Of a DNA stretch of 64,000 nucleotides, positions 1 through 64,000 are shown in pieces (position 1 is the stretch's first letter; every line of letters starts with the position of its first letter). The position numbers and the translations under genes are program-made. The notes beneath the pieces were generated by a model, which saw only the letters and a list, made by a program, of their open reading frames with translations, ran no database searches and was not told where the DNA came from. The stretch comes from a virus. The stretch spans positions 1 through 64,000 of IMG/VR virus record IMGVR_UViG_3300036402_000045; one strand, written 5' to 3'.

Positions 1-1315
1 GTGCTCCACCACCGGGGTAGTAGTCGATGGCCCCTTGTGCCTGAAGCTGGAGAGCGGGCGTCGTACCGGCCGTGGACTGAATCCAAGTCGTATACGTTCC
101 GTCAGTCGAACGACTGAAATACATTCCGAGATCCGTGATCTTCGATGTCTGGTTGGCAACCTGGCTCGTTGCGTAGAACGACTGTCCGCTCGCATCAACC
201 CACTGACGCTTTGCAGATGCAGAGTCTTGCCACTCTTGAAGGTTTCCAACCTGAACAGCAGCGCCCCGAACCAGCAAACCGGCTTTGTCTGCCGCAGGAT
301 GGATTGACATAACGAACGGCGCTCGGTTGCCGCCGCTCGTACCGCCAGTGAAGATGTTCTCGGCAGCGGGAGTGCTCATGCCAGCCGCTAGATGAACCGT
401 TCCGCCGCTTACAACGTTGGTGAACCGAGCAACTCCTACGTAATAGCCGGTGTCGGTCATGTCCAGAAGCGGAACACCGGATTGTCCACCCGGCGCAACT
501 CGGAATGTCACGGCATCTGCGCTGGTTCGGATTTCGAACGGGTTGGCCGTAGGAGTCACAGCCATCTTGACGATCACTCCCGGCTGACCAGCCGAAGGGA
601 AAACCGAAAGCTTGGAGATGGGGAACTGCGGAGTAGCACCAATGACGACGCCGCCGTTGCTCGCCGCGGGCGAGAAGTGAATGCCGGTGTACGTTGCGTT
701 GCCGAGGCCCATCACCCGGTTGGCGTTTACTGCGGCGAGATCCTGGTTTATCAGGGTGTTGTCTCGTGAATCCCGGATGTTGTTGTTGACCCGGAGGAAA
801 GCGTTGGCGTTGACAACGACCGCCGAAGGGAAGAACTGGAGAACGTCGGTGCCAGTGACAACTGCCTTGAACGATCCAACAGAATCTTTGTAAAAGCCGG
901 TGCTGATTTCGGCAGCAAACCCCAGGCCGGGATTGCCAGAAGTTCCGGAAGGGATCAGAACCGGCCCAGTAAAGATGGACCCATCAAGAATGCCTGCCAC
1001 AGCCGTTGCGATCGCCGCAGGAGTGTCTGTCGCGGCCAACTCCACGATGGCCCCTTGCACGTCTACCGCAGCAACACCAGCAGCAGGAACGAACCTGACT
1101 TGCGAAGCAGTGAGGTTCGTCAGATAGCTGTCGGCTTGATCGATCGCAGCCTGCACGTCGCCTGCCGTGATGACAATGTTCCCGGCAGGGTTGTAGGCGA
1201 TGTTCGGAGCCGTGTCGGGCGGATAGACCGCGAACAGCGACGACACTTCGATGATGTCGGGCGTGTCCTCGCGAACGAAGACGCGATCAACGATGTCCAT
1301 TGAAGTGACGGTCAT
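1..1315 (-). CDS. Tail fibre / minor tail protein, N-terminal part (runs off left edge)
   Basis: The frame is open from an ATG at 1315 to the window edge, about 438 residues with no stop. The translation is rich in Gly, Ala, Ser, Thr, Val and Asn, with repeats of the type seen in trimeric beta-rich fibres (for example DVQAAIDQA near residue 55 and DVQGAIVELA further on). This composition and the neighbouring terminase suggest a receptor-binding or side fibre; the exact role is inferred. The ATG overlaps the stop of the upstream gene (ATGA), so translation is probably coupled. The C-terminus lies outside the window. Confidence 0.6.
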   Translation of the reverse strand, partial: MTVTSMDIVDRVFVREDTPDIIEVSSLFAVYPPDTAPNIAYNPAGNIVITAGDVQAAIDQADSYLTNLTASQVRFVPAAGVAAVDVQGAIVELAATDTPAAIATAVAGILDGSIFTGPVLIPSGTSGNPGLGFAAEISTGFYKDSVGSFKAVVTGTDVLQFFPSAVVVNANAFLRVNNNIRDSRDNTLINQDLAAVNANRVMGLGNATYTGIHFSPAASNGGVVIGATPQFPISKLSVFPSAGQPGVIVKMAVTPTANPFEIRTSADAVTFRVAPGGQSGVPLLDMTDTGYYVGVARFTNVVSGGTVHLAAGMSTPAAENIFTGGTSGGNRAPFVMSIHPAADKAGLLVRGAAVQVGNLQEWQDSASAKRQWVDASGQSFYATSQVANQTSKITDLGMYFSRSTDGTYTTWIQSTAGTTPALQLQAQGAIDYYPGGGA

Positions 1316-1725
1316 CGAGTGACTTGCTCCTTGATCGTGACGGTGCCCTCAGCCCACGGGATCTTGATGATGTCGGGAGCGGGAGACAGGAATTCGATGT
1401 CGTGGACGGCCCTGCCGAACTTTCGGAAAGTGTCAGTAACAGCCCACGGAAGATGGAACTCGATGTGACCGTTCACGCCTCCGAAGGTGATCGTGCCGTC
1501 ACGACCAACCACGTCAGCAGTTCCCAGCGTGGCGATCAGGATGCCACCAACGCGATCGCGGATCTGCATCTTCGCCGTGTAGCCCGTCGTGTCCACTGGC
1601 TCGTAAACGAGCTTCCCGGACGCGTCACGGGTGACATTGCCGTCAAGATCAAGCACAGGAGTCGTCCAGCGGAGGGTCTTGCGCCAGTCCGTGCCTGCCT
1701 TGATGGTGATGTCCCACGGGGCCAT
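1312..1725 (-). CDS. Putative tail/baseplate-associated structural protein
   Basis: A 137-residue protein starting MAPWDITIKAG, with alternating beta-strand-like segments and a phrase (TAKMQIRDRVGG) typical of small proteins encoded just upstream of phage fibre genes. It sits between the large terminase and the fibre gene and is stop-start coupled to the fibre (ATGA). It is probably a virion component or fibre adaptor. No catalytic motif is visible, and the assignment rests mainly on context. Confidence 0.5.
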   Translation of the reverse strand: MAPWDITIKAGTDWRKTLRWTTPVLDLDGNVTRDASGKLVYEPVDTTGYTAKMQIRDRVGGILIATLGTADVVGRDGTITFGGVNGHIEFHLPWAVTDTFRKFGRAVHDIEFLSPAPDIIKIPWAEGTVTIKEQVTR

Positions 1726-1741
1726 AGCCCCCTATCTTGCC

Positions 1742-3493
1742 CTATCGCTTCTTCTTGCTCCCGAAACCACGGGCAATGGCGACGCGACCCCTACCTTGGC
1801 CTGTTGACGCCATCGCGCGGGCCTTGGCTCCCATCGGAGGCCCTTGAGTGCCGCCACGTAGGTCAGGGTTGGACGAGAAGGCTCGCGGAGGGATGGCGAC
1901 CTTGTGCAGCCCCAGTCGCTCGATGAAGCCCGCAAAATGGCAGATCATCGCGTCGCAAAGGTGGTCGTTCTTCTTGACGATCCGACCACCCTGGTCCCGT
2001 CGCCAACCACGCACCTGCTCGATGAACTCAACGTGCTCAGCGGGGATGACGAGGTTCGAGCCATCGACGTAGATGTTCATCGCCGCAGCAGACGTTTCCT
2101 TGACTTCGGAAAAGTTCACGTCGTTGACCGGAAGGCGATGTACGTCCCGAAGCTCTTGGTTCAGGTAGTTGCCGCCGCCACCGATGTCGCAGTTCACGGC
2201 AACGAGATCCGACCGGTACCGAGTGGCGTAGCCGATGATCGAGCCGAACATGTCGGTACGGGTGTTCTCCGGAAGAAGATCGGCGTGCAGGAGGATCTGC
2301 TTGCGGCCCTGCTCCTGCCATACCTCCACGGCACCGTTCCCCGTACCCCAGTCCACGTCGATGTCGATCGGATTGTTCGGAACGTAGAGCGAGTCCGCTG
2401 CGGTGTTCACGATCGAGTCGTTGAAGCGGGTCATGTTCAACACGACGTAGCCCGAAGTCGAAGGCCGCTGACCCATCGCTTCGACTTCCCAGCGAGCATG
2501 GTTGCGGCGCATACGACGCCACAGCTTCTCGATCTCTTCCATCGGAACCCAGCCCTCGGCGTACATGGCCTTTCCGCCGCAGTAAGCCTTGTGGATCATC
2601 TTCTCTTCGGGAAGACCGGTTTCCGTATTGGTGATCGTCTCTACATGGTCCTCGCGGAAGCACGGCTCCGGGGACTGGCACACGTCCACGCATTCGCAGC
2701 CCGCACAGACATCGAAGGTGTCCCAGCGGTAGAGCGTGTAGCCCATCTCTTCATGGTTGTCGATCAGTTCAGCAAACGACCCCGCAACATTGTGAAACGT
2801 GGAGCAACGCACGTTGACAGACGGCATGGCGGTGTTGATCGTCGGAAGAGCGGCATCAACGATGTCCTTGTCAGCTTCCGCTTCCTCATCGATGACCAGC
2901 AAACCGCCACGGGTCTTGCCACGGCGCTTACCGCCAGCGTGGGGCGAGCGAACGGACTTGGACGACGCGGTGAGCACCCGAACCCACGAGTCTTCGATCG
3001 AGAACGTCTTCTCCCGCTGCGGGTCCGTCTTGAGAAGCGTCTTCCAGTACGGGTCGCTCTCGATGTAGCCGATGAGGTACTGGTACACGTTGTCGGCCTG
3101 AAGTTCCGAACCACCGAGATTCAGCGCGTCAAAATCAAGCACCAACCACAGGTAGAACTCCACGAAGGAGACTCCGTAGCTCTTGCCGCCGCCTCGGGAG
3201 GCCACCGCAGCAGCGTCTCGGACCCGCAGGGTGCATACGTCATCGATCATCTCCCGCAGACCTGGATGACGTTTTCCGAACTTCGCCTCAGCCTCTTCCT
3301 CGGTCAGAACACCAAGCTCGATCATCCGATCGACGGGCTTACGCGGAAGAAGCAGCCCAAAGCGATCCGCAAGCTCCAGCGGCTTCCCTTTGAACTGCTC
3401 CTTCAGATTCCTACCTGGATCACGCAGCGCACGGAGGAAGTCAGCAGCCGAGGCTCCTTCCAGAGTGTTGCGATTTCGCTGCGGTGCGGGCAT
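1742..3493 (-). CDS. terL: Terminase large subunit
   Basis: A 583-residue DNA-packaging motor with ATPase and nuclease domains. Walker A is at residues 98-105 (SRGGGKSY) and a hydrophobic Walker B ending in DEE is near 198-204 (LLVIDEE). The C-terminal RNase H-like nuclease shows DVDWGTGNG, then NCDIGGGGN and a late NDHLCDA, supplying acidic residues. A Cys cluster (CAGCECVDVC) near residue 263 may bind zinc. Length fits the family. The gene heads the structural genes that must continue beyond the left edge. It translocates DNA into the prohead and cuts concatemers. Confidence 0.93.
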   Translation of the reverse strand: MPAPQRNRNTLEGASAADFLRALRDPGRNLKEQFKGKPLELADRFGLLLPRKPVDRMIELGVLTEEEAEAKFGKRHPGLREMIDDVCTLRVRDAAAVASRGGGKSYGVSFVEFYLWLVLDFDALNLGGSELQADNVYQYLIGYIESDPYWKTLLKTDPQREKTFSIEDSWVRVLTASSKSVRSPHAGGKRRGKTRGGLLVIDEEAEADKDIVDAALPTINTAMPSVNVRCSTFHNVAGSFAELIDNHEEMGYTLYRWDTFDVCAGCECVDVCQSPEPCFREDHVETITNTETGLPEEKMIHKAYCGGKAMYAEGWVPMEEIEKLWRRMRRNHARWEVEAMGQRPSTSGYVVLNMTRFNDSIVNTAADSLYVPNNPIDIDVDWGTGNGAVEVWQEQGRKQILLHADLLPENTRTDMFGSIIGYATRYRSDLVAVNCDIGGGGNYLNQELRDVHRLPVNDVNFSEVKETSAAAMNIYVDGSNLVIPAEHVEFIEQVRGWRRDQGGRIVKKNDHLCDAMICHFAGFIERLGLHKVAIPPRAFSSNPDLRGGTQGPPMGAKARAMASTGQGRGRVAIARGFGSKKKR

Positions 3494-3522
3494 GACGCCA
3501 GAGAGTAGCGCCCTATAGCCGC

Positions 3523-3672
3523 TTAGTCGTCCTGCATGTTCCTCTGGACGTACTTGCGCTGTCTTGCCTTCTGAACCCGGTCCCGGCGCTCCTGAGCGGC
3601 CTCAGGTGTCTCTGGAGGCAGAACAGCATCGATCTCGGCAAGCACTTGATCGAGTGTGCGGTGATCCGTCAT
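3523..3672 (-). CDS. Small charged protein upstream of terminase
   Basis: A 49-residue frame beginning MTDHRTLDQV. The N-half looks helical and the C-half is very basic (RRDRVQKARQRKY), which suggests nucleic-acid or protein contact. It lies about 30 bp upstream of terL in the same direction, fills an otherwise empty gap and has coding-like third-position GC. The position would suit a packaging accessory, but no homology is recognised. Confidence 0.5.
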   Translation of the reverse strand: MTDHRTLDQVLAEIDAVLPPETPEAAQERRDRVQKARQRKYVQRNMQDD

Positions 3673-3698
3673 CTTGAATCTCCGTTTCGCATACCCGC

Positions 3699-3917
3699 CT
3701 ACTCGTCCGAGAGTAACCCTCGGTCCTTTGCGAGCTTGAGATTCGCCTTCTCGGTTGCGATCGGGTCGTAGTGGTAGCGGAGCGCGGGGAACGACATAAG
3801 CATGTAGACCACGACTCTGTTCTCAGGGTCTACAGGATTCGGAAATATCCGAACCGAGTCAGTCGCGGCAGGCTCAACACAACCATCGAGAGGCCCGCCA
3901 AAGAAGGTGACGCTCAC
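3699..3917 (-). CDS. Hypothetical protein (72 aa)
   Basis: I chose the GTG at 3917 because it overlaps the stop of the upstream gene (GTGA), the pattern used throughout this cluster. The upstream extension in the same frame is a shadow of the next gene. The protein starts VSVTFFGGPLDG, a phrase seen at the N-terminus of many small actinobacterial and phage proteins of unknown function. It has no membrane segment. Confidence 0.6.
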   Translation of the reverse strand: MSVTFFGGPLDGCVEPAATDSVRIFPNPVDPENRVVVYMLMSFPALRYHYDPIATEKANLKLAKDRGLLSDE

Positions 3918-4162
3918 TTCTTGTGCTTCTTTGATTCCATGCACCAGTTCTCGAAGTCTTCCGAATTCGGATCTGCACGTACGTAGATGCCTGAGAACGT
4001 CATGGAACCGCACTTGCAGCATTGCTCCCACCGACAAGCTTCGTGCTTGAGTCGGGTCGGTTGACGAACCGACGTTCCTGCATCAGTCACGACGCTGTTG
4101 GACTCGAACCAGCAATCGTCACAGACCGGATGAGTCCATCGAGACTCGGGGTGGGCGCTCAC
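3914..4162 (-). CDS. Small zinc-ribbon-like protein
   Basis: 82 residues with two Cys pairs, CDDC near residue 14 and CCKC near 48, plus His residues, consistent with a structural zinc site. The GTG start overlaps the preceding stop, and its own stop overlaps the next GTG. The function is unknown; a nucleic-acid or protein-binding adaptor is a reasonable guess. Confidence 0.6.
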   Translation of the reverse strand: MSAHPESRWTHPVCDDCWFESNSVVTDAGTSVRQPTRLKHEACRWEQCCKCGSMTFSGIYVRADPNSEDFENWCMESKKHKK

Positions 4163-4434
4163 TCTTCCGTCTCTTCGACCTGCATCTGATCGAAGAGTGC
4201 TACCTGAGCGCCCTGATCGGTGATGAAGCTGAAGCGGAAAACCGAATTTCCGTTCAGGATGATCGTGTCCTTCGAGAACCCAACGATCGTGGCCTCCACG
4301 CCACGCGCAGGCTCCACGCCATCAGGCGTGCGAACCTTGACCCGTTTCCCGACCCACTCGGCCAGGGACTCGTCTGTCCAGCCTTGGTCAAACTGGTCTG
4401 CCCAGTCCCCTGCCCATACCTCGATTGCTTCCAT
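4159..4434 (-). CDS. Hypothetical acidic protein (91 aa)
   Basis: The ATG at 4434 has a good AAGGAG Shine-Dalgarno six bases upstream; the longer upstream frame is not protein-like. The middle (VGKRVKVRTPDGVEPARG, then IVGFSKDTIILNG) looks like a small SH3-like or OB-like beta-barrel, and the tail is acidic (EETEE). It begins a run of coupled genes towards terL. No function is recognised. Confidence 0.65.
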   Translation of the reverse strand: MEAIEVWAGDWADQFDQGWTDESLAEWVGKRVKVRTPDGVEPARGVEATIVGFSKDTIILNGNSVFRFSFITDQGAQVALFDQMQVEETEE

Positions 4435-4463
4435 GTGCGCTCCTTGGCGTCTATTCGGAATAT

Positions 4464-4688
4464 TTACTTCGGTGCAGGAGTCTCGTCGGATGCGCGCACT
4501 CGGGCTTCGATGGCGGCGACGTGCTTCTCGCTGTGCGGCGGGGCACCAGGGTCGTCGGACTCGGACGCTGCGAGGATTGACGCTGCTTGCTCTCGGTCCT
4601 GCTCGGACGAGGAACCACAGTCGCATTTCTCGGCGTGCATCCGTTCAGCCAGTCGCACGACTTCCGGCAAATTCGGATTGTCACTCAT
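4464..4688 (-). CDS. Hypothetical protein (74 aa)
   Basis: The start at 4688 (MSDNPNLPEVV) overlaps the previous gene's stop within ATGAGTGA. The protein is a mostly helical, charged chain with one CDCG motif. It is not membrane associated, and no family is recognised. Confidence 0.55.
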   Translation of the reverse strand: MSDNPNLPEVVRLAERMHAEKCDCGSSSEQDREQAASILAASESDDPGAPPHSEKHVAAIEARVRASDETPAPK

Positions 4689-4878
4689 CGGTCTTCGGGA
4701 GATCGACCTGAACTTCCTTGTCCAAAGCAATGACCCACTGGGTTCCCGTGGTCCCGAAGGTCACGGACGCCTCGTTGTGCTCCAGGAAGGTGACTTCCTG
4801 TGCGTGGCGGCTGTTGGGGAAATGCAGCAGGTCGCCAATGACGACTTCGTTCGCGGTCTTGGTGATGGTTTCAGACAT
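4681..4878 (-). CDS. Hypothetical protein (65 aa)
   Basis: A small soluble protein (MSETITKTANEV...). The pattern VIGDLLHFPNSRHAQEVTFLEHNEASVTFGTTG resembles a compact beta-barrel. It overlaps both neighbours by a few bases, implying coupled translation. No function is recognised. Confidence 0.6.
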   Translation of the reverse strand: MSETITKTANEVVIGDLLHFPNSRHAQEVTFLEHNEASVTFGTTGTQWVIALDKEVQVDLPKTDE

Positions 4879-5248
4879 CGACGTTCTTCTCGTCCTCTCG
4901 GGTGGTGATGAACTCCTTCACGGAGCCGTACCGCTCAATGGTAGGCAACCGGTGGTACTCCGTCCTTGCGGTACCGATCAGGACGACTCGCTTGTTGAGA
5001 GCGATGGCGATCCCAAGGGCGGTTTCGGAAATTGGCTCTGACGACCCCTTGCCGATGGCGTAGATCAGTCCATGCGACTTGGCGATGTCGTCCATCGCCG
5101 CCATAGCGGCCTCAGCCGGATCGTCATCATCGTCCTGAAGTAGATCGTCTCGCAGCCATCGAGCGGCCACGTCATCTCCGATCTTCTTCAACTCGTCCTT
5201 GAGCTTCCGAGAAGCCTTCTCGTTGCCGGTGACGTGCCAGCGCATCAT
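4871..5248 (-). CDS. Nucleoside 2-deoxyribosyltransferase-like (DUF4406-like) protein
   Basis: 125 residues. The C-terminal half reads SETALGIAIALNKRVVLIGTARTEYHRLP, the E-x-G-x-A-x-A-L-x-K-R-V pattern of nucleoside 2-deoxyribosyltransferase/DUF4406 folds, where the Glu is catalytic and the downstream segment closes the nucleotide pocket. The N-terminal half is helical with an acidic run (DDDDD). Such proteins may salvage or remodel nucleosides during infection; the activity here is inferred. The start sits beside the stop of the upstream gene. Confidence 0.55.
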   Translation of the reverse strand: MMRWHVTGNEKASRKLKDELKKIGDDVAARWLRDDLLQDDDDDPAEAAMAAMDDIAKSHGLIYAIGKGSSEPISETALGIAIALNKRVVLIGTARTEYHRLPTIERYGSVKEFITTREDEKNVDV

Positions 5249-5249
5249 C

Positions 5250-5480
5250 TCAGTTCACCACCCGAAAGGCGGGGCCTTGTTCTTCGAAGATGTACGACTC
5301 GTAGTGCCGGATCTCCGTGCCCGAGGGGTTTGTGACGTTGATCCGAAGCTCCATGAGTCCCATCTTCTCCACGATGCCGCCTGCGGCCTTCTGGAAGGCG
5401 TCGGGGGCCGTACTGGGGCCGTTGAGGAAGGGAAACTCGTCCTTCAGGGCTTGCGCCAGCTTCTCGATGAACTTGTCCAT
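5250..5480 (-). CDS. Hypothetical protein, probably leaderless mRNA (76 aa)
   Basis: The ATG at 5480 follows GCGTATCA by six bases and has no Shine-Dalgarno, so the transcript likely starts at the ATG itself. The longer frame upstream runs back through a terminator hairpin and is rejected. The protein is a helical N-half (DKFIEKLAQALKDEF) followed by beta segments (MELRINVTNPSG). Function is unknown. Confidence 0.65.
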   Translation of the reverse strand: MDKFIEKLAQALKDEFPFLNGPSTAPDAFQKAAGGIVEKMGLMELRINVTNPSGTEIRHYESYIFEEQGPAFRVVN

Positions 5481-5486
5481 ATCTTC

Positions 5487-5494
5487 TGATACGC
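5487..5494 (-). promoter_or_regulatory. GCGTATCA start-proximal element
   Basis: A copy of the (G/A)CGTATCA element, six bases before the ATG at 5480 and just downstream of a terminator hairpin. The geometry fits a -10 element giving a leaderless transcript. Confidence 0.5.
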
Positions 5495-5501
5495 AAACGC
5501 G

Positions 5502-5540
5502 GAGAGATCCCCCGTCCGTTGCCCAAACAGGGGATCTCTC
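5502..5540 (-). terminator. Hairpin terminator
   Basis: An 11-bp inverted repeat GAGAGATCCCC / GGGGATCTCTC with a short loop, lying between the minus genes 5573-5821 and 5250-5480. It is followed on the minus strand by CGCGTTT, a variant of the CGCGTC tail found at the other hairpins. Confidence 0.7.
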
Positions 5541-5572
5541 GCAGAGGCCGGGGAAGTGGCCTGTCATGCAGC

Positions 5573-5821
5573 CTAGAGGACGGCTCCGCGGATCTCGACA
5601 CTCTCGATGTCCTCCAGAGCGAAGTAGACGGGCCTCATTGTGTCCGTCTTGACGCCCACAATCCGAAGTAGCTCATGGTCGATCTCCAGGATCGAGCACG
5701 ACGACCCTGTGCCGTTGCTGCGGGTGATGAACACTTCGTACCCGAACTCACAGGGCAAATGGAGGATCACAAGCCAATGAAGAGGGTCGATTCGCTTCCT
5801 TTCACGCCTCTCAGGAGCCAC
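5573..5821 (-). CDS. Hypothetical protein (82 aa)
   Basis: Starts with GTG at 5821, directly after the stop of the upstream gene. Residues 12-25 (DPLHWLVILHLPCE) are hydrophobic but too short to be a convincing membrane span. The rest looks like a small beta fold. It ends just before the terminator, so it is the last gene of its operon. No family is recognised. Confidence 0.55.
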   Translation of the reverse strand: MAPERRERKRIDPLHWLVILHLPCEFGYEVFITRSNGTGSSCSILEIDHELLRIVGVKTDTMRPVYFALEDIESVEIRGAVL

Positions 5822-5822
5822 G

Positions 5823-6212
5823 CTAAACCTCTGAAATTCCGTTCAGAATGTTCAACATCTCTCCCAAAAGTTCCGGATTTGACTTGAAATTGGCACTCTT
5901 GGCGTCTCTGAGGCTGAAAACCACTTCAGAACCCTTCAGAATGGTTACAGACACCCGCATGGAGTCAATACTGACCACTTCAGCGTCTCCGCGAAGCTCT
6001 TCGAAGGGATCATCGACCGAAACCTCGATGTCCCAGAGCGGATCAGGGTTCGCAGGAACCACATTGCTGCCGATGTCTTCGATCCAGCCCCGATCTGCGG
6101 CCTCAACGAGAGCGAAGGCGTTTGCACCGACTCGAAGGTAGGTGATGCCGAGGGTTTCTTCGAAGGCCGCGGGCGTGGGGCAGCTATCAGTGATCGACCA
6201 AGTGTGCCTCAC
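5823..6212 (-). CDS. Hypothetical protein (129 aa)
   Basis: The GTG at 6212 overlaps the previous stop (GTGA), so the longer upstream frame is not used. The protein begins VRHTWSITD and is a mixed alpha/beta, mildly acidic soluble protein. It ends with a helix (SNPELLGEMLNILNG). No motif is recognised. Confidence 0.6.
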   Translation of the reverse strand: MRHTWSITDSCPTPAAFEETLGITYLRVGANAFALVEAADRGWIEDIGSNVVPANPDPLWDIEVSVDDPFEELRGDAEVVSIDSMRVSVTILKGSEVVFSLRDAKSANFKSNPELLGEMLNILNGISEV

Positions 6213-6445
6213 GAAGAAACCTTCCGAAAGAACTCGTTGAACGCCTCGGTGCGGGCTGCGGATTGGGATTCCTTGTCGTTGACGAAGATGACCGTGTGCC
6301 ATCCAACGATATGTTGACTACTGGCGTAGGAGAAACCGTTTGCGTCCCGACCTGACATAGCAGGGACCACAGCGCGCATCTGAACCTCGGCCTTCCATCG
6401 ATCGTCGTGCTGCCGCTCGGTGACGATGTGGAACTCAATCTCCAT
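6209..6445 (-). CDS. Hypothetical protein (78 aa)
   Basis: Begins MEIEFHIVTERQ. The pattern of short strands and a C-terminal helix (AARTEAFNEFFRKV) suggests a ferredoxin-like mini-domain, as in many small phage proteins. It is coupled to both neighbours. Function is unknown. Confidence 0.6.
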   Translation of the reverse strand: MEIEFHIVTERQHDDRWKAEVQMRAVVPAMSGRDANGFSYASSQHIVGWHTVIFVNDKESQSAARTEAFNEFFRKVSS

Positions 6446-6725
6446 CGGATTCCTCCAAACGCAACGAGTCCACGTACTTCGCAAGATCGTTCTGGTACTT
6501 ACGAATCGTGTAGATGACCGGGCCGACGATGTTGTCCAACTCCTGAACGGCATCCCGAGCCTTTGCCGAGAGATCCGATGAGTCATCGGCTTCCAGACGA
6601 AGGCGAAGCTCGCTGAGGTAGATCGTCTCCTTCTTCGGGCCAACGTGGGCGAACCACTTCTCGCCCCGCATGGCGCACTTGGCAACGACGTGGACGCCCT
6701 CGATCTCGAAAGCTGTGATCCTCAT
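6435..6725 (-). CDS. Hypothetical coiled-coil protein (96 aa)
   Basis: The ATG at 6725 overlaps the upstream stop (ATGA). The N-half is beta (MRITAFEIEGVHVV) and the C-half a long charged helix, probably a short coiled coil. No recognised family. Confidence 0.6.
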   Translation of the reverse strand: MRITAFEIEGVHVVAKCAMRGEKWFAHVGPKKETIYLSELRLRLEADDSSDLSAKARDAVQELDNIVGPVIYTIRKYQNDLAKYVDSLRLEESDGD

Positions 6726-6943
6726 TCGGAAACCTCTTCCTCGGTGAGCGCTGAGATGTTGAACCCGACGAGCTTGCGTTCGAGTCCTGCGATCTCCAGC
6801 TTGGCGGCTTCCTTGTTGATGCACCGCTCTCCGGTAGGCGAATACTGATCCGGGTAGGTGCCGGTCTTCAACTGCTCCACGCGGCGAGCGTAAGCACGCT
6901 CCTGACGGCGGCGCTTCATGGGATGAGATGTCTGTCGTGCCAT
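6722..6943 (-). CDS. Hypothetical basic helical protein (73 aa)
   Basis: The N-terminus is strongly basic (KRRRQERAYARR), which suggests nucleic-acid contact. An acidic C-terminus ends EEEVSE, where the final codons contain the TTCCGAA-type motif. The ATG follows ACGTATCA by six bases with no Shine-Dalgarno, so a leaderless mRNA is likely. Confidence 0.6.
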   Translation of the reverse strand: MARQTSHPMKRRRQERAYARRVEQLKTGTYPDQYSPTGERCINKEAAKLEIAGLERKLVGFNISALTEEEVSE

Positions 6944-6949
6944 GTCTGG

Positions 6950-6957
6950 TGATACGT
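6950..6957 (-). promoter_or_regulatory. ACGTATCA start-proximal element
   Basis: Lies six bases before the ATG at 6943, overlapping the TGA stop of the upstream gene 6957-7226. Confidence 0.5.
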
Positions 6958-7226
6958 CACTTTCTAGCAGCGTTGAAGATCATTCCGATTGCGGTTCGCG
7001 GAGTACGGCCCTTCGCCTTGATCTGGACGCCCCGGTACTCAACCACGACTTCGAACTCGAAGCGAGCGGTCAGTTCTGGATCGTCCTCCATGTCGGCGGT
7101 GAACTCACGCATGGTGTTGACAGGACCGAGGTACTTGAAGTCCAGCCCGAGATCCTTCGCTTCGTCTTCGAGCACCAGAGCGGAGAACGAATCGAACCCA
7201 CACTTCTCGAAGAACGCTTGGCTCAT
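6957..7226 (-). CDS. Hypothetical protein (89 aa)
   Basis: Begins MSQAFFEKCGFDSF, with a central acidic segment and beta strands (FEFEVVVEYRGVQIKAKG). The ATG is six bases after GCGTATCA. No family is recognised. Confidence 0.6.
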   Translation of the reverse strand: MSQAFFEKCGFDSFSALVLEDEAKDLGLDFKYLGPVNTMREFTADMEDDPELTARFEFEVVVEYRGVQIKAKGRTPRTAIGMIFNAARK

Positions 7227-7232
7227 ATCTTC

Positions 7233-7240
7233 TGATACGC
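7233..7240 (-). promoter_or_regulatory. GCGTATCA start-proximal element
   Basis: Six bases upstream of the ATG at 7226. The downstream six bases (GAAGAT) are identical to those before the gene at 5480. Confidence 0.5.
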
Positions 7241-7269
7241 CTTCCGCGTTTTTCGGATATCGGAGCGAC

Positions 7270-7320
7270 TTTCACCTACCCATGCAAACCCGCAGGTCAG
7301 GAACTATGGAGTAGGTGAAA
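7270..7320 (-). terminator. Inverted repeat in gap, possible terminator
   Basis: A 10-bp perfect inverted repeat TTTCACCTAC / GTAGGTGAAA with a loop of about 31 bases, between the stop of 7351-7548 and the next promoter-like element. No T-tract follows. It could equally be a protein-binding dyad. Confidence 0.4.
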
Positions 7321-7350
7321 TAAATTGCTGACTCGCAATCCCATAGTCGC

Positions 7351-7548
7351 CTATGTCATGGATGCGTCGGCAGCACAGGCAATGAAGTCCGTCTGCGTGA
7401 TGGGCCAATTCTGGTTCGCCGGAACGTAAGCGAACTCCATCCAGACCCAGACCCACATCGACGGCGCATAGCCATGCTTGTCTTCGTAGTCGGCAAGCGT
7501 TTCTTGGATCTCGGTGATGATCTTCCAGAAGAGTCGGTTCGGAATCAT
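7351..7548 (-). CDS. Hypothetical protein (65 aa)
   Basis: The ATG at 7548 overlaps the upstream stop (ATGA); a GTG three codons earlier is possible. Tryptophan-rich (MWVWVWMEF) with a helical N-terminus. It is last in its operon, before the inverted repeat at 7270. No family is recognised. Confidence 0.6.
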   Translation of the reverse strand: MIPNRLFWKIITEIQETLADYEDKHGYAPSMWVWVWMEFAYVPANQNWPITQTDFIACAADASMT

Positions 7549-12902: not shown

Positions 12903-13440
12903 GGCGGAAAGCCTTTCGGTCTGGGGGTTCCTCCGAACCCCGCAAGTGCAACGTTACACGTTTCGGAATGTTTCTGGGGTGACTTGAGGAACGCGTGCGA
13001 CGCGCGCGCACGTAGTAAGCGGATTTCCGTTCCGGAGCGCTGGAGGTTCGGAACGTTCCGATGCTCGCGATAGTTAGCGGTTTGCTAGCTGTTCGGAACG
13101 TTCCGATCCTCAAATCGCTTCAGAGGTTCGGAAACCTCGTTCCGCGTGTCGTCGGCGCGGAATGGCGGTTCCGGAGCGCTCGCGGGGTTCTAGGGGGTTC
13201 TCACGCCTAGCTAGAGGAACCGTCCGGACCGCGTGACGTAGCGCTAGGCGTGAGGTTCGGAGCGCTAGCGGTTCGGAATGTCCGATATCGACGCTTGCAA
13301 GCGCGCGGAACCCCTCATTTCGGAGTGTTCGAGCGCTCCAGCTAGCGCGGCGTGACCGCGTGCGATCGGCAGGGGACGAGCGCGCCCGCGCTCCGGAATA
13401 TTCGGTCTGCCTAACTTCAGAATGTCGGCGCGCCTAACGG
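12903..13440. repeat. Repeat-rich non-coding region 2
   Basis: About 540 bp without a supported gene. Five TTCGGAA sites cluster here, several next to CGTTCCG, forming dyads such as TTCGGAACGTTCCGA (about 13050 and 13090). TTCGAGCGCTCCAGCTAGCGC is shared with region 1, and GGAGCGCT/AGCGCTC words recur. It lies just upstream of the DnaA-box cluster, so an extended origin or regulatory region is likely. Confidence 0.55.
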
Positions 13441-13444: not shown

Positions 13445-13540
13445 TGTTCGTCCACAGGTTGTGGACAAACCTGTGGAAAAGAGTTATCCTCAGGGAGATC
13501 GGAGTTTTTCCACAGCGAAATCCACAGGCTGTGGACAAGC
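13445..13540. other. DnaA-box cluster, putative replication origin
   Basis: Six box-like elements in about 85 bp: TTGTGGACAA (13459), CCTGTGGAAAA (13470), TTATCCTCA (13484), TTTTTCCACAG (13505), TCCACAG (13521) and CTGTGGACAAG (13529). They match TTGTCCACA / TTATCCACA in alternating orientation. The first two form a dyad, CCACAGGTT / AACCTGTGG. No gene covers the site and repeat arrays flank it, as in bacterial and phage oriC-like loci. Confidence 0.65.
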
Positions 13541-13685
13541 TGGGGACGACGGAGGGTATGTCCGTTTTGCCCCGGTTTGGTAGGATTCGAGGCACGTCCT
13601 CTCTTACTACGCTCTCTACTGAGGCTGTGACTTTTTGGACTTTCTCAGTTTCCGCAAACCTCTGTGACTTTCGGAAATATTCTGA
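13541..13685. other. Short gap beside the origin
   Basis: No supported gene; one TTCGGAA site lies near 13672. A plus-strand frame crossing this region from 13444 is rejected because it runs through the DnaA boxes and lacks protein-like composition. Confidence 0.4.
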
Positions 13686-15064: not shown

Positions 15065-15093
15065 AGTATGCCTTTCGGAAAGTTTGGCGTCAA
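15065..15093 (-). promoter_or_regulatory. Promoter with TTCCGAA in spacer
   Basis: TTGACG -17 bp- CATACT on the minus strand; the spacer contains CTTTCCGAAAG. The -10 ends seven bases before the ATG at 15057, predicting a leaderless mRNA. Confidence 0.75.
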
Positions 15094-15119
15094 CAGATTT
15101 CGGAAGTTTCTCCGAAAGA

Positions 15120-15441: not shown

Positions 15442-15470
15442 AGTATGGCTTTCGGAATCTTCTGCGTCAA
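15442..15470 (-). promoter_or_regulatory. Promoter with TTCCGAA in spacer
   Basis: TTGACG -17 bp- CATACT, spacer containing GATTCCGAAAG; the -10 is seven bases before the ATG at 15434. It is nearly identical to the promoter at 15065-15093. Confidence 0.75.
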
Positions 15471-15733
15471 GCCTGTTCGGAATCTTTTCGGAAGCTCCAC
15501 TGAGACGTGTAGCGCACACGCCGATACTGAAGGTCGTGAGACTGGTGGAGTAGCTGCGAAACCCATCCGAGGCAGTTCCCGTACGTGAACCCGTGAGAAC
15601 GCGTCAGCATCGGCGTGGCCCACATCTCGTCAAGAACCTCGTTGATGTCGAACCACTGATCGACACCCCTTCGGAAAACGATGGAGGCAGCACATCTCAC
15701 CACGTACTCAAGCTGCGGGTTCTCGTTCGGCAT
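15467..15733 (-). CDS. Hypothetical protein (88 aa)
   Basis: MPNENPQLEYVVRCAAS... helical, aromatic-rich, with no motif. Its start overlaps the upstream stop (TGATG), and its 3' end overlaps the -35 of the next promoter. Confidence 0.6.
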   Translation of the reverse strand: MPNENPQLEYVVRCAASIVFRRGVDQWFDINEVLDEMWATPMLTRSHGFTYGNCLGWVSQLLHQSHDLQYRRVRYTSQWSFRKDSEQA

Positions 15734-17892: not shown

Positions 17893-17921
17893 AGTGTCGC
17901 AGCTTTCGGAATGTTTGTCAA
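17893..17921 (-). promoter_or_regulatory. Promoter with TTCCGAA in spacer
   Basis: TTGACA -17 bp- GACACT, spacer containing AAACATTCCGAAAG. It overlaps the 3' end of the upstream gene and drives the peptidase gene. Confidence 0.7.
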
Positions 17922-18444: not shown

Positions 18445-18473
18445 AGTGAATCACATTCGGAAACATTCCGCAA
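18445..18473 (-). promoter_or_regulatory. Divergent promoter, minus arm
   Basis: TTGCGG -17 bp- TTCACT with TTTCCGAA in the spacer; an extended dyad TTCGGAAACATTCCG lies at about 18456-18470. It fires towards 18438. Confidence 0.65.
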
Positions 18474-18477
18474 GAGC

Positions 18478-18506
18478 TTGACTTCAGAATCTCCGTAGGC
18501 CACTAT
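18478..18506 (+). promoter_or_regulatory. Divergent promoter, plus arm
   Basis: TTGACT -17 bp- CACTAT, with TTCAGAA overlapping the -35. It ends seven bases before the ATG at 18514 and is only four bases from the minus promoter, so one regulator could switch both directions. Confidence 0.7.
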
Positions 18507-19009: not shown

Positions 19010-19249
19010 ATGCCTCAGAGCACAGAAGCGAAAGAGCGGCGTCGGGCCACGGCACGCGAGAAGCTGGTCAAGGTCACCGAGGACCGGAAGGCCGCTGAAG
19101 ACAAGGCCGATCGTCTACGCCGGAAGCAGTTCCGATTCATTCTCAAGTCCCATCAGAGCGGACTGACCTACCGTGAGATCGCAGCGGTTACCGGTCTGAC
19201 CGAGATCCGCATCGCTCAGATCCTTCGAGCCGAGAGAGAAGCCGCATGA
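19010..19249 (+). CDS. Small helix-turn-helix DNA-binding protein
   Basis: 79 residues. A basic helical N-half is followed by SGLTYREIAAVTGLTEIRIAQILR, a canonical HTH resembling sigma region 4 or replication/transposase-type HTHs. A strong AAAGGA Shine-Dalgarno lies upstream, unlike the leaderless neighbours. It is a candidate regulator of this divergent region. Confidence 0.7.
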   Translation: MPQSTEAKERRRATAREKLVKVTEDRKAAEDKADRLRRKQFRFILKSHQSGLTYREIAAVTGLTEIRIAQILRAEREAA

Positions 19250-22571: not shown

Positions 22572-23540
22572 TTACCCCTTGGTGGCCTTGGCAGCCTTCT
22601 TCGACGGTACACGACCGTTCTTGGAGCCAGGATCATCAGACGAACCGACCACGAACACCTTGATCGTTCCCTCGATGCCACGACCCGTGCGGATCACGCC
22701 AAAGCCGAACTTGTCCCGCATGGTCTGAGCCGCAAGCAGAAGCCGCTTGTCGAAGTCCAGAAGGTCGATGGCTTCCGTCTCCTTCTGGTACGGATGCAGT
22801 TCCACCTTTTCGGAAAGCTTCGTGGCAAGCGTCTGCCGGTTGCCGCCGCGGAACAGGAGCGGAGCGACGTGGAAGAGGTTGGCGTTCTTGCGGAACGGGT
22901 TGATCTTCTCCGTGGCCTTCGTGACCCCTACCTTCGGGTACGTGACCCGAACGGAATCCTTCGTGGCTCCGGTGCCGCCCGGAGTGCGCGGACGCTCCTT
23001 CTTGGCAGCTTCCCGAGCAGGCGTCTTCTTGGCAGGAGCCGTCTTCTTCGCAGCGGGAACCTTGCGAGCAGGGGCCGTCTTGCGAGGGCCTGTCGAAGCC
23101 TTGCGAGCAGGGGCCGGTGCGGTCTTCGCAGGCTTGTCGCTCTGCGCTTCCTCAACGGCGCTGCGAAGCTCCTTCAGACCCATCGACTCGTACCCCTTGA
23201 TGCCGAGGCTGCGAGCCATCTTCTGAAGCTCCTTGGCCTTCGGCTTGTCGATGGTCTTGGGCATGTGTTCCTTGATCCTTTCCGAATCATTCAGTTGTGC
23301 GGACTTTACAATGTCTCTGGTCGGTTGTCCACCAGAAACTTGTGAAATGGAGACGATAACCGGAAATGGGTCGTCTCCAATCACAATCTTCGCCCGGTGT
23401 TGACTTGTCTTCTCGATCAAGCACGACTTGATCGGCCCCTTGGCAGGGATATACCAGGCCCCTTTACCGGCGACGAGGGGAAGCCCGTCTGCTCCGAGCA
23501 CGGGCGCGCGCTCCGGTCGGTTCTTCATCCTCGTCGTCAT
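22572..23540 (-). CDS. Lys/Ala/Pro-rich protein with SAP-like domain
   Basis: Up to 322 residues. KAKELQKMARSLGIKGYESMGLKELRSAVEE is a SAP/Rho-N-like DNA-binding unit. It is followed by a histone-H1-like Lys/Ala/Pro tail (AARKVPAAKKTAPAKK type) and a folded C-terminal domain ending VFVVGSSDDPGSKNG. The start is ambiguous: ATG 23540 gives 76 bp of overlap with the upstream gene, while ATG 23264 (MPKTIDKPK) has an AAGGA site and would drop a plausible N-terminal beta domain. Probably a DNA-organising protein. Confidence 0.6.
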   Translation of the reverse strand: MTTRMKNRPERAPVLGADGLPLVAGKGAWYIPAKGPIKSCLIEKTSQHRAKIVIGDDPFPVIVSISQVSGGQPTRDIVKSAQLNDSERIKEHMPKTIDKPKAKELQKMARSLGIKGYESMGLKELRSAVEEAQSDKPAKTAPAPARKASTGPRKTAPARKVPAAKKTAPAKKTPAREAAKKERPRTPGGTGATKDSVRVTYPKVGVTKATEKINPFRKNANLFHVAPLLFRGGNRQTLATKLSEKVELHPYQKETEAIDLLDFDKRLLLAAQTMRDKFGFGVIRTGRGIEGTIKVFVVGSSDDPGSKNGRVPSKKAAKATKG

Positions 23541-29817: not shown

Positions 29818-29846
29818 ATCTAACAGCTTCGGAATGTTTACGTCAA
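29818..29846 (-). promoter_or_regulatory. Promoter with TTCCGAA in spacer
   Basis: TTGACG -17 bp- TTAGAT, spacer containing AAACATTCCGAAG; drives the SNF2 operon. Confidence 0.72.
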
Positions 29847-29863
29847 GCGAATATTCGGAAACC

Positions 29864-30848: not shown

Positions 30849-30877
30849 ATCCTAAGGGATAAACATTCCGAAGTCAA
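30849..30877 (-). promoter_or_regulatory. Promoter with TTCGGAA at -35/spacer junction
   Basis: TTGACT -17 bp- TAGGAT, with CTTCGGAATGTTTA across the -35 and spacer; the -10 is six bases from the ATG. Confidence 0.72.
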
Positions 30878-32712: not shown

Positions 32713-32741
32713 AGTATGGATCGGAATGTTTCCGATGTCAA
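32713..32741 (-). promoter_or_regulatory. Promoter with dyad operator in spacer
   Basis: TTGACA -17 bp- CATACT; the 17-bp spacer is almost filled by the dyad ATCGGAA-ACA-TTCCGAT, the clearest two-fold symmetric version of the motif. Confidence 0.75.
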
Positions 32742-34229: not shown

Positions 34230-34258
34230 ATTGAATCATGCTTCGGAATGTTTGTCAA
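34230..34258 (-). promoter_or_regulatory. Promoter with TTCCGAA in spacer
   Basis: TTGACA -17 bp- TTCAAT, spacer AAACATTCCGAAG at the centre; drives the glutaminase gene. Confidence 0.78.
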
Positions 34259-45605: not shown

Positions 45606-46187
45606 ATGCCGAAGAAGAGCGCAGCAGACGCCCTCAAGGAAGCCTTCAACGACTTCATCGATGAGCTTGCCGCCGCCGGTCCTGCCGACGACGACGAGTT
45701 CGAGGACGATGAGGATCTGGAGGACGAGGATTCCGAAGAGGAAGAGGACGACGATGAGGACGAGGACGAAGAGATCCCCGTCTACACCGAGAAGCAGCTT
45801 GCGAAGAAGAGCAAGGAAGAGCTTCTGGTCATCGCCAAGGCCCTCGATCTCGACACGACCCGCAAGCGCGAGAACACGCTGCGGACCATGATCCTCGAAG
45901 CCCAGTCCGAAGAGGATGAGGACGACGAAGAAGAGTCCGAAGACGAGGACGACGAGGACTGGGACGACGAGGACGATTCCGAAGACGACGAGGACGATGA
46001 GGACTCGGACGACGACGAGGATGACGACGACGAGGACTGGGACGAGGACGACGAGGATGACGAGGACGAGGCTCCTGCCAAGTCCAGCAAGGCGTCCAAG
46101 TCCGCGAAGAAGTCCACCAAGAAGGCCGCTGGCACCCCCAAGAAGTCCACGGGGGCGAAGAAGGCCACCGCACGGAAGCGCCGGTAG
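45606..46187 (+). CDS. Super-acidic protein with SAP-like core and basic tail
   Basis: 193 residues. A helical start is followed by two long Asp/Glu tracts flanking LAKKSKEELLVIAKALDLDTTRKRENTLRTMIL, a SAP-like unit, and a Lys/Ser/Ala/Pro tail (histone-H1-like). The charge split (acidic body, basic end) suggests a DNA mimic, chaperone or nucleoid factor. It lies directly after the SSB gene. Confidence 0.65.
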   Translation: MPKKSAADALKEAFNDFIDELAAAGPADDDEFEDDEDLEDEDSEEEEDDDEDEDEEIPVYTEKQLAKKSKEELLVIAKALDLDTTRKRENTLRTMILEAQSEEDEDDEEESEDEDDEDWDDEDDSEDDEDDEDSDDDEDDDDEDWDEDDEDDEDEAPAKSSKASKSAKKSTKKAAGTPKKSTGAKKATARKRR

Positions 46188-59358: not shown

Positions 59359-59799
59359 TCAGACCTTGAAGACCTTCGCCATGACGAGGTACACGATGAT
59401 GGCGCAGGCAGTAGCGAGCAACGCCGTCTGCCAATCAAGATGACCGTCTTCGTTCGGAGTCTTCTTCCCGCGAACCGTGGCACCGGGAATCATCTTGAGA
59501 CGAGCCGGATCATCCGAAGGGCGCTTGGCCGAGAGGTAGTCGGCGGCGAGGCCAGCACCAGATCCAACGGACAAGCCGATGGCAATGAGGGAGTAGGCGT
59601 TCATCTTCGCCAGCGAGCCGCCGATGTCGATCTGCGAAGCGAAGTCGGTCTGTGCGTAGAGCACGACGGCGACAACGCCCGCAAGCCAAGCGGAGGCCGT
59701 GGTCACGATGCCGTTGATGTCGCGGTTCGTGAGGTACTTGGTGAAGTCGATCACCTTCTTCACCAACGCCAGCATTGCGAGTACGGGTACGAATTCCAT
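59359..59799 (-). CDS. Putative holin or lysis membrane protein (146 aa)
   Basis: Residues about 3-18, 32-50, 68-86 and 126-144 are hydrophobic, giving three or four membrane spans with short loops (MEFVPVLAMLALVKK; VTTASAWLAGVVAVVLYA). The lysis-gene position favours a holin. The true start (ATG 59799) has a nearby GGAG site. Confidence 0.6.
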   Translation of the reverse strand: MEFVPVLAMLALVKKVIDFTKYLTNRDINGIVTTASAWLAGVVAVVLYAQTDFASQIDIGGSLAKMNAYSLIAIGLSVGSGAGLAADYLSAKRPSDDPARLKMIPGATVRGKKTPNEDGHLDWQTALLATACAIIVYLVMAKVFKV

Positions 59800-61185: not shown

Positions 61186-61194
61186 CTTTGTCGG

Positions 61195-62151
61195 CTACTC
61201 CGTAACACTGACCTGCACATGGGCAGGCCATCCCGGTGCCCATCCTTCGACCGAGAGGATCGTCCCGTTGCTGCCGGGAAGGTCATCGGCAGCGAAGCCG
61301 AGCTTGGCGTTCTGGTACTTCTGGTCAGCCTCCGGGCGCAGGCCAGGTTCGAGAGCACCCTTGATCTGGGTCTTCGACCACGGAAGACGGACCCAACCGA
61401 ACCCGGCATAGGGACCGGAGCTTCCGGTTCCAACGATCACGTCGTAGGTGTTCAACTGCATGTCAATTTCCTCCGATGAGAGAAGCGTGAGCCACGCCGG
61501 GGGCGCGGGAGTTGGCGGCGTTGGTTCGGAAATCACCATGCCACCACGAACGAACTGCATTACTGCACCGCCAGGGCAAGCGGTCTGCTTCCAATCGGCA
61601 TGAACGTGCCGCTCGGTTCCGGAGCCGCGGGCCTCGTACCACTCGAAGACATTCCGAAGTCCACGTCGGGCATCCACAGTGAACTCATCGCCCTCGCCCA
61701 TCAAGACGCAATGGGCGTAGCTGCGATCGTTCCCGGTATTGGTGCCGTTGGCAGCCGTTCGCCATCCGTACCAGCGTCCTTCGAAGATGAACCCGTGACG
61801 GCAAGTGACATCGGAATATGCGATGTCATTCCAGCCCTGGTGCTCCATGTGGTACTTCTGAATTCCACGGAGCTTGGTGGCGCAGGACGTGTGCGGATAG
61901 TCCCCGAGGCCCGGACCTTCCCAGTGGGCCGTGTTGCCGCGTGCGGTCGTTAGACCGGTCCTGCCCGTTGCGGCCTTGGCTCCCCAAGAAACCCGAGGGA
62001 TGAACTTCGCAGGCGGCGGCGTTCCCTTGACGCTGAGGATGGCGTTCTGGAAAGGCGGGGACTCGATCTGGCCGACGTACTCCAGAACCTCGTAAAGCTC
62101 CAGGAGATCCGCAGGAACGGAAAGATGTTCTGCTTCGAGAAGCTCAGTCAA
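61195..62151 (-). CDS. N-acetylmuramoyl-L-alanine amidase (PGRP/amidase_2 type)
   Basis: 318 residues. TAHWEGPG, then YHMEHQGWNDIAYS...CRHGFIFEGR, and HVHADWKQTACPGG give the zinc ligands His, His and Cys of the PGRP/T7-lysozyme fold in the middle third. The N-terminal 65 residues form a separate helical domain, and the C-terminal 110 residues may bind the cell wall. It cleaves the amide linking muramic acid to the stem peptide. No signal peptide, so it needs a holin. Confidence 0.88.
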   Translation of the reverse strand: MTELLEAEHLSVPADLLELYEVLEYVGQIESPPFQNAILSVKGTPPPAKFIPRVSWGAKAATGRTGLTTARGNTAHWEGPGLGDYPHTSCATKLRGIQKYHMEHQGWNDIAYSDVTCRHGFIFEGRWYGWRTAANGTNTGNDRSYAHCVLMGEGDEFTVDARRGLRNVFEWYEARGSGTERHVHADWKQTACPGGAVMQFVRGGMVISEPTPPTPAPPAWLTLLSSEEIDMQLNTYDVIVGTGSSGPYAGFGWVRLPWSKTQIKGALEPGLRPEADQKYQNAKLGFAADDLPGSNGTILSVEGWAPGWPAHVQVSVTE

Positions 62152-62926
62152 GGGGACTCCTGAATGCTTGGTAGAGCGTCGCGCCGAACTGCGGCGTCTG
62201 CGGATAGGACGGAGAAGGCAGCGCCAAACGGATGCGGCGATACCACTCGCGGAACGTCTTCACGTCAGGACCGAGAGCATCGATGGCCGCTCGGGTGAAG
62301 GCTCCGTTGGGACGATTTCCGAAGGAGGCGTCGTAGCTGTATTCCGGATCGTCGCAACCCGAGATCAGAACCGGACCGCTTCGACTCGTCGCCCGGATGA
62401 ACGTGCGCTCTGCGGCGATGGCAGCCTCGACGCTCACGGGAACCGAAGGGATCAAGCCGGGAGAGATGAACTTCGGCTTTCCGGGAGGGGGAGCAGACGC
62501 CATGATCCCTCGGGCCACGGTTCCGGAGTGGCAGGAATCCGAAAGAACCGTGATCTGCGTTCCGTGGCGAGCACGGCCAAAGATCGTGTGCATCTCGTCA
62601 TCGATGAGAAGGCCACCGCTGGCGTAGTCGTGACAGCACAGCGCTTCGTCACGACCATCCGGCTCGTCACCGTCGCCGTCCGGAACCCACGTCCCGTGAC
62701 CCGAGTAGCAGAACACGAACCGATCCCGGTACTTCATCGAATCCACGATGCCGAGAAGTTCAGCCACGATCCGGGCCTTGGTAGCCGAGGAATCCAGAAG
62801 CGTCGTGACGGTGTAGCCGCGCGACTGAAGAACCTGTGACCAGTCCATCGCATCGTTGATGCAACCGGAAAGATCTCCCGCTCCGGGGTAGTCGTTGATC
62901 CCTACGCACAAGGCAATACGTCGCAT
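62144..62926 (-). CDS. Caspase-like (metacaspase, C14) protease
   Basis: 260 residues covering a complete p20-like caspase fold. CYSGHGTW places the catalytic His at 77, and LSDSCHSGT the catalytic Cys at 132. DDPEYSYDASFGNRPNGAFTRA forms the p10-like end. It overlaps the amidase gene by eight bases. Substrates (host or phage proteins with basic P1) are unknown; it could mature virion or lysis proteins or act on host factors. Confidence 0.82.
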   Translation of the reverse strand: MRRIALCVGINDYPGAGDLSGCINDAMDWSQVLQSRGYTVTTLLDSSATKARIVAELLGIVDSMKYRDRFVFCYSGHGTWVPDGDGDEPDGRDEALCCHDYASGGLLIDDEMHTIFGRARHGTQITVLSDSCHSGTVARGIMASAPPPGKPKFISPGLIPSVPVSVEAAIAAERTFIRATSRSGPVLISGCDDPEYSYDASFGNRPNGAFTRAAIDALGPDVKTFREWYRRIRLALPSPSYPQTPQFGATLYQAFRSPLD

Positions 62927-63235: not shown

Positions 63236-63509
63236 GACTGATCTTCTTTCCGGTGGTCTTGCGGGGCTTGGGGGTCGTTACCCGACCGTTGTGCTTCGGC
63301 CTGTCCTTCATCGCTGCTTCCAGAGCTTCGGTCAAGCTCACCTTCTCCTGCGAGATCTGCTCGATCACCGCATCGAGCACGGTGTTCTCTCGAAGAAGCT
63401 GTGCGTTCTTTCGCTCCAGCGCCCGGACATAGGCGTTGATGTCCAGATTGATTCCGCCCTCTGGAGCTTCGGGTACTTCGGGAACCTGCTTTTCCGGTTG
63501 CGGCGTCAT
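63228..63509 (-). CDS. Coiled-coil protein (93 aa)
   Basis: Pro-rich start, then a heptad helix (VRALERKNAQLLRENTVLDAVIEQISQEK) and a basic tail. May oligomerise next to the fibre protein. Function is unknown. Confidence 0.55.
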   Translation of the reverse strand: MTPQPEKQVPEVPEAPEGGINLDINAYVRALERKNAQLLRENTVLDAVIEQISQEKVSLTEALEAAMKDRPKHNGRVTTPKPRKTTGKKISHA

Positions 63510-63538
63510 GCGCTCTTCTCCTTGTCTTGGTCGGCCAT
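63506..63538 (-). CDS. Possible 10-residue frame
   Basis: MADQDKEKSA between the fibre stop and the coiled-coil gene, overlapping both (TGATG and ATGA). Its AAGGAG serves as ribosome site for the next gene, so it may only be spacer. Confidence 0.2.
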   Translation of the reverse strand: MADQDKEKSA

Positions 63539-64000
63539 CAGGCTGCCTTCTTCTTCAGAGCATCAACTTCTTCGGAAAGCTCTCGAACCGCCTGCCACAA
63601 GATAGCGAGTACGCCGAGAGGCTGGACACCCTTGGTTTCGAAGACTTCCTTGTCGTTGGTGTTGCTCTTCAGCATCGTCCGGTGGACAACTTCAGGAGGC
63701 AGGGTCGTTGCGTCGAATCCGAAATTGTCTCGATCGGAATCCGAGTTTTCACCCGGACGCCACTTGAACTTGATGGGGGTGATGGCCTTCACCTTGTCAA
63801 GCTGTCGTCCCGCAGAAGCCTTCAGTGGCTCGATGTTTCGCTTCAGCCGCGGATCGGATTGATCCACATGCACACCGGCATGAGAGTTGCGCCAAGCGGT
63901 TGACGCTTGGTTGACGTGGCGAGCGGCACCGACACCGAAGCCGTCGTGGTAGCGCCCAGCCTCGATGGAAACGTCCCATGCAGCAGACGTGATGGCGGTG
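63538..64000 (-). CDS. Tail fibre C-terminus with S74-type intramolecular chaperone (runs off right edge)
   Basis: The frame is open to the window edge. SDPRLKRNIEPLKAS is the peptidase S74/endosialidase-chaperone signature (Ser-Asp at the cleavage site). This domain folds a trimeric fibre and is then cut off. The later part (FGFDATTLPPEVVHRTMLKS...RELSEEVDALKKK) ends in a helix that would form the coiled coil. The N-terminal fibre body is outside the window. Confidence 0.8.
   Translation of the reverse strand, partial: TAITSAAWDVSIEAGRYHDGFGVGAARHVNQASTAWRNSHAGVHVDQSDPRLKRNIEPLKASAGRQLDKVKAITPIKFKWRPGENSDSDRDNFGFDATTLPPEVVHRTMLKSNTNDKEVFETKGVQPLGVLAILWQAVRELSEEVDALKKKAA

Follow-up and report, generated by a model that had tools for sequence, protein, structure and literature searches.

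The genome of an uncultured tailed phage carries the palindromic heptamer TTCSGAA in large excess, both within and between its genes. This excess is independent of codon and base composition, comes at a cost in amino acid sequence, and is present in only some relatives of the phage. We rate the chances as about even that TTCSGAA is recognized by a sequence-specific DNA-binding protein that belongs to this phage lineage, most likely a 79-amino acid helix-turn-helix (HTH) protein encoded at positions 19010..19249 on the plus strand. If this reading is correct, the codons and even the amino acids of a phage have been reshaped by selection for hundreds of sites at which a protein binds. This would go well past known stoperator systems and would show a phage that keeps a chromatin or silencing code in the sequence of its whole genome. 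The existence of motif-rich and motif-poor relatives together with a small candidate gene makes this reading directly testable.

Results and Discussion

The window analyzed here comprises bases 1–64000 of the record of an uncultured virus (G000), which is 89,782 bp long. It contains 138 exact copies of TTCSGAA (58 TTCCGAA and 80 TTCGGAA), spread from position 1422 to 63577, close to the approximately 130 copies of the original prediction. The whole record holds 185 copies at a mean spacing of ~470 bp (473 bp), compared to 22 copies of the reversed control AAGSCTT and an expectation of 16–33 copies from Markov models of order 1–2. Gene calling by script gave 119 genes and a coding fraction of 82%. 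As predicted, copies occur in both compartments: 140 of the 185 lie wholly inside coding sequences and 45 lie in noncoding DNA. Two hundred genome-wide synonymous shuffles of the coding sequences produced 21.0 ± 4.4 copies (maximum 32), and the same number of within-gene shuffles produced 24.9 ± 4.5 (maximum 40). The 16.0 kb of noncoding DNA should contain 3.2 copies by expectation, and at 2.8 copies per kb it is ~1.5 times as dense as the coding DNA (1.9 per kb).

We can therefore reject the idea that the motif is a by-product of codon or dipeptide usage, which is left with a negligible probability. This explanation draws on Ser-Glu, which 66 of the 140 coding copies specify through the frame NNT-TCS-GAA. 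Against it, the excess over synonymous shuffles is 6.7-fold, copies occur in all three frames, noncoding DNA is denser than coding DNA, and motif-poor relatives show no excess. Ser-Glu had been named beforehand as a coding context together with Phe-Arg; the former is indeed the main one, and Phe-Arg shares with Phe-Gly a frame that accounts for 36 coding copies. The original prediction would have fallen with counts no higher than those of codon-preserving shuffles or with an equal density in comparable genomes; we found 140 coding copies against ~21, and neither comparison refuted it.

TTCNGAA is the most abundant of all palindromes of the form NNN-N-NNN, exceeding the runner-up 3.5-fold. The motif is reverse-palindromic, and both central bases are common on both strands. 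The related heptamers TTCAGAA and TTCTGAA, also mentioned in the original prediction, occur 22 and 15 times in the window. Among the one-base neighbors TTCWGAA, ATCSGAA, and TTCSGAT are enriched, and most others are near expectation. The flanks favor A or T, such that the fuller form of the motif is better written as WTTCSGAAW. Judged from sequence, such graded near variants resemble those of a degenerate binding site. Motif finding by EM picked up the periodicity of codons instead and was abandoned.

Along the G000 record the copies are spaced more evenly than by random placement (CV of 0.79 vs 0.995 ± 0.07, p = 0.0005), an evenness that we did not see in the motif-rich relative G001. Copies are distributed evenly over the deciles of gene length, and with noncoding DNA being denser, the earlier impression that copies often sit at gene ends was not borne out. 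Their reported absence from the first 1.3 kb is correct, with the first copy at position 1422, and unremarkable, since five gaps are longer. Read along the direction of transcription, C-centered copies prevail in G000 by about 2:1 (92:48 in coding, 27:15 in noncoding DNA); the corresponding ratios in G001 (52:41 and 14:21) do not show this bias. The usage of TCC and TCG codons does not explain the bias in G000. The densest cluster, five exact copies within 317 bp (12962..13278), some of them paired as TTCGGAACGTTCCGAT, adjoins DnaA-box-like repeats at 13450..13545 (matches at 13460, 13472, 13506, and 13530) that mark a possible replication origin. The motif-rich relative G002 has clusters of DnaA-box-like repeats too, near 34.5, 35.1, and 39.6 kb.

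Chi sites and DNA-uptake sequences are also dense, short motifs that occur genome-wide, within and between genes, and both are asymmetric; Chi sites are strand-biased as well. TTCSGAA could accordingly serve as a tag, Chi-like or for self-recognition, through which a nuclease or recombinase of host or phage protects or recombines phage DNA. The occurrence of about one copy per 0.5 kb, within and between genes and at positions that are not conserved, would suit such a tag. However, TTCSGAA is palindromic, has graded variants, and sits in promoter spacers, and the asymmetric, strand-biased, octamer-like character of Chi was looked for and not found. This explanation also offers no candidate reader. 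The genes for UvsX and a Cas4-like nuclease are present in motif-poor relatives as well. We therefore consider it improbable.

G000 encodes portal, major capsid, tape-measure, and terminase proteins, the marks of a tailed phage, along with a replication set of DnaE, DnaB, primase, UvsX, and ThyX. Relatives were found by capsid and polymerase searches of IMG/VR. Motif-rich among them are G001 (134 copies in 81 kb), G002 (32 in 78 kb), and the fragment G005 (20 in 16 kb); motif-poor are G003 (5 in 74 kb), G004 (6 in 73 kb), G010 (1 in 43 kb), and G013 (4 in 81 kb). Within coding sequences, observed counts and synonymous-shuffle means are 140/21.3 for G000 and 93/17.5 and 23/5.9 for two motif-rich relatives, whereas three motif-poor relatives, whose capsid and polymerase genes are the same, stay at shuffle level (4/3.7, 6/5.6, and 3/5.7). 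The earlier idea of a packaging motif is weakened, since motif-poor relatives have the portal, capsid, and terminase genes in common with G000. Ser-Glu is raised above expectation only in motif-rich genomes (1.59, 1.27, and 1.37, compared to 0.91, 0.82, and 0.92 in motif-poor ones). This difference shows that the pressure for the motif reaches into protein sequence.

When G000 and G001 are aligned, only 7 of 64 coding sites have stayed in place (10.9%), which is near the baseline of 6–8%. Sites thus turn over while density persists: what is kept up is density, not the position of single sites. From this combination it follows that the intragenic copies probably work as a collective and do not each serve the gene in which they lie. 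Preferred variants also differ by genome, with TTTCGGAT in G001 and TTTCSGAAA and TTTCGGTT in G002, shifts that would be expected from a drifting protein specificity.

Turnover at constant density would equally fit a genome-wide signal imposed by the host. According to this explanation, the host chromosome is itself rich in TTCSGAA, serving as a site for a nucleoid protein, recombination, or methylation, to which the phage has adapted, and the motif-poor relatives infect other hosts. Motif-rich and motif-poor phages do form separate clades and may differ in host. On the other hand, the copies in promoter spacers as well as those arrayed at the HTH promoter, described below, point to a phage regulator, and closely paired TTTCSGAAA is absent from three unrelated bacterial genomes, a weak argument as none of these is a known host. 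On balance we consider a host feature unlikely. A search of 397 genomes from the phylum of the Streptomyces contig L175 with the MCP profile, run without a positive control, gave no match.

Searches for an annotated phage relative returned only short DnaE and ThyX matches at the DNA level and distant matches by MCP tblastn; the HTH and the Rho_N-like protein (see below) gave none. A query of three closely spaced copies brought up mainly local tandem repeats in collections of viruses and bacteria. An unrelated phage contig (L037, IMGVR_UViG_3300042923_000880) contains 24 copies of TTCSGAA in 7.4 kb (1–7412), mostly as CTTCSGAAG and present in every 500-bp bin. Contig L120 resembles it, with 8 copies in 3.6 kb, and the two are possibly an independent case of a dense motif.

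Which protein may read this motif? We compared every G000 gene with two motif-rich (G001 and G002) and four motif-poor relatives (G003, G004, G010, and G013). Only the HTH gene and the gene for a 146-aa predicted membrane protein (59359–59799) have clear matches in both rich and in no poor relative, with the reservation that these records may be incomplete and gene absence is uncertain. A gene for an acidic low-complexity protein (45606–46187) follows the same pattern weakly. The HTH protein shares 50% and 48% identity with its homologues in G001 and G002, and was not found by tblastn in G003, G004, G013, or G010. In a tree of ten proteins a single branch (support 100/100) divides motif-rich from motif-poor phages. 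The co-occurrence of the HTH gene and the motif thus counts as a single event and not as several independent ones.

The recognition-helix residues EIR..QILR are invariant in the three HTH homologues. An AlphaFold2 model (pLDDT 89.8) consists of a long N-terminal helix (residues 5–49) followed by the HTH helices (54–61 and 65–78). Profile matches to Sigma70_r4 and HTH_23 fall below cut-off, with weak likeness to sigma-70 region 4/WhiG and other HTH families. Structure searches returned only generic HTHs of resolvase, response-regulator, and sigma-region-4 type, none with E ≤ 0.001, and an immunity-repressor chain (8bny_A) matches weakly in sequence (E = 0.095). Three queries of IMG/VR did not reveal additional homologues. 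Counting against the HTH protein as reader, a canonical HTH dimer spans two major grooves, for which a palindrome of 7 bp is short. A second candidate, the Rho_N/basic protein encoded at 22572–23264, was rejected because it also occurs in motif-poor relatives. This protein is basic, rich in Ala, Lys, and Pro, and Rho_N-like at its N terminus; it is present in the rich and some of the poor relatives and may be of nucleoid type.

The motif is also found in promoters. Five of the nine recognizable TTGAC-17-TANNNT-like promoters in G000 contain an exact TTCSGAA between the −35 and −10 elements, compared to a background of 6.4% at similar positions in noncoding DNA (p = 1e-4), and some have a second copy ~25 bp upstream. 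Two promoter-like elements on the minus strand, both TTGACG-17-CATACT, share this layout: the one at 15065..15105 bears TTCCGAA within the spacer plus another copy upstream (15074 and 15099, 25 bp apart), and the one at 15442..15482 has spacer and upstream copies at 15451 and 15476. On the same strand, the element upstream of a helicase gene (29818..29860) combines a spacer copy at 29828 with an upstream copy at 29854, TTGACA-17-CATACT (32713..32741) has the paired site TCGGAAACATTCCGA in its spacer, TTGACA-17-TTCAAT (34230..34258), upstream of 33239–34201, has TTCCGAA in its spacer (34242), and TTGACT-17-TAGGAT (30849..30877) has TTCGGAA overlapping its −35 element. The promoter-like region of the HTH operon itself (TTGACT-17-CACTAT, 18456..18506, plus strand) is preceded by TTCGGAA at 18456, and TTCAGAA overlaps the end of the −35 element and the spacer.

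The region upstream of the HTH gene holds two strict or relaxed sites in G000 and five within ~120 bp in G001, where it is among the densest motif stretches of the genome; in G002 there is no site near the HTH gene. None of nine G001 promoters has an exact site in the spacer, and the paired form ATCCGAATTCGGAT recurs upstream of promoters in this genome. Neither pattern is seen in G002. The promoter evidence is thus strong in G000 and partial in G001. In G001 (L250, 12590–17893), palindromes of the GAAACTTTC type sit in the −35/−10 spacers of the promoters at 17893, 15771, and 12618. GAASTTC is enriched in G000 as well, and such palindromes are a possible second operator.

Together, these observations suggest a DNA-binding protein, probably the HTH protein, that would act as a regulator at promoters and collectively occupy hundreds of sites across the genome. 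Binding of the candidate to TTCSGAA in the −35/−10 spacer would repress phage promoters, including its own, and the intragenic copies may act jointly, either as transcription roadblocks or as anchors for packaging and silencing phage DNA. The original suggestion of an operator or silencing site gains from the promoter-spacer copies in G000, the copies in the HTH promoter region, the graded near variants, and the rich/poor split that matches the presence of the HTH gene. The suggested role in immunity does not: integrases of the tyrosine and serine types and ParA were looked for and not found, as PF00589, PF00239, and PF13614 were without match in six, possibly incomplete, records. With no lysogeny genes found, a repressor would need another role. 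More tentatively, and in our estimate rather doubtful, the lineage may write a tag across its genome, coding sequences included, by which a tiny HTH protein coats, organizes, and selectively controls phage DNA as a chromatin or self mark, in phages where no lysogeny genes were detected.

The closest precedents are the stoperators of Cluster A mycobacteriophages, dispersed short sites, some of them in promoters, which are bound by a phage HTH protein (L5 gp71/TipsytheTRex repressor) with one site near its own gene (PMC9283540, PMC6550527). These phages contain ~20–30 sites, each asymmetric and 13 bp long, which lie in promoters and in short gaps between genes and are read by a two-domain repressor (PMC9283540, PMC6550527). 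The phage described here resembles them in the dispersal of many putative binding sites (185). In contrast, its sites are roughly six-fold or more as numerous, as the original prediction of a much higher density had implied, and form a palindromic 7–9 bp core instead of an asymmetric 13-bp element aligned with transcription; orientation bias is partial and confined to one genome. Moreover, 140 of the 185 sites lie within coding sequences, promoter enrichment is found in G000 only, and the candidate is a 79-aa single-HTH protein and not a monomeric repressor with HTH and Stoperator domains. Cluster A phages are also temperate, with an integrase or a partition module for lysogeny, whereas neither integrase nor ParA was found here. 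The motif thus does not belong to the stoperators of Cluster A, in which bound sites halt transcription, even if by analogy the system may work in a similar way. The best reading of these sequences would be operators plus genome-wide sites, stoperator-like yet palindromic, far denser, and mostly intragenic, with no integrase detected. The SPBRE of SPbeta was likewise first noticed in silico as a repeated phage element and later shown to be the site of the master repressor MrpR (PMC10516654). Unlike the hundreds of intragenic sites here, SPBRE measures 15 bp and occurs at some ten promoters between genes (PMC10516654).

HIP1 (GCGATCGC) of cyanobacteria is a chromosomal, highly iterated palindrome in excess, with variants mainly at the end bases and a tie to methyltransferases (PMC4390886). 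It shares with TTCSGAA the great genome-wide excess that includes coding DNA, whereas TTCSGAA belongs to a phage lineage. By analogy, a methyltransferase could mark TTCSGAA, and biased mismatch repair could create and keep the sites without selection for function. G000 does encode a methyltransferase-like protein (40060–40767). This match covers about half of the family model and is below cut-off, and the gene, the only one of its kind, is absent from G001 and G002, which weakens both this explanation and the original idea of a modification site. None of the six records has a member of two other methyltransferase families, precursors one base away, such as TTTCGAA, show no depletion, and placement in promoter spacers is not predicted by such a mechanism. 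The lack of a consistent methyltransferase counts against a HIP1-like origin, although a host enzyme could take this part, and we regard such an origin as improbable.

Several other genes in the window deserve mention. A caspase-domain (Peptidase_C14) protein is encoded at 62144–62926, a NADAR-domain protein at 27062–27532, and a YspA-like SLOG protein at 39581–40060. The latter two may bear on NAD-related defense or counter-defense.
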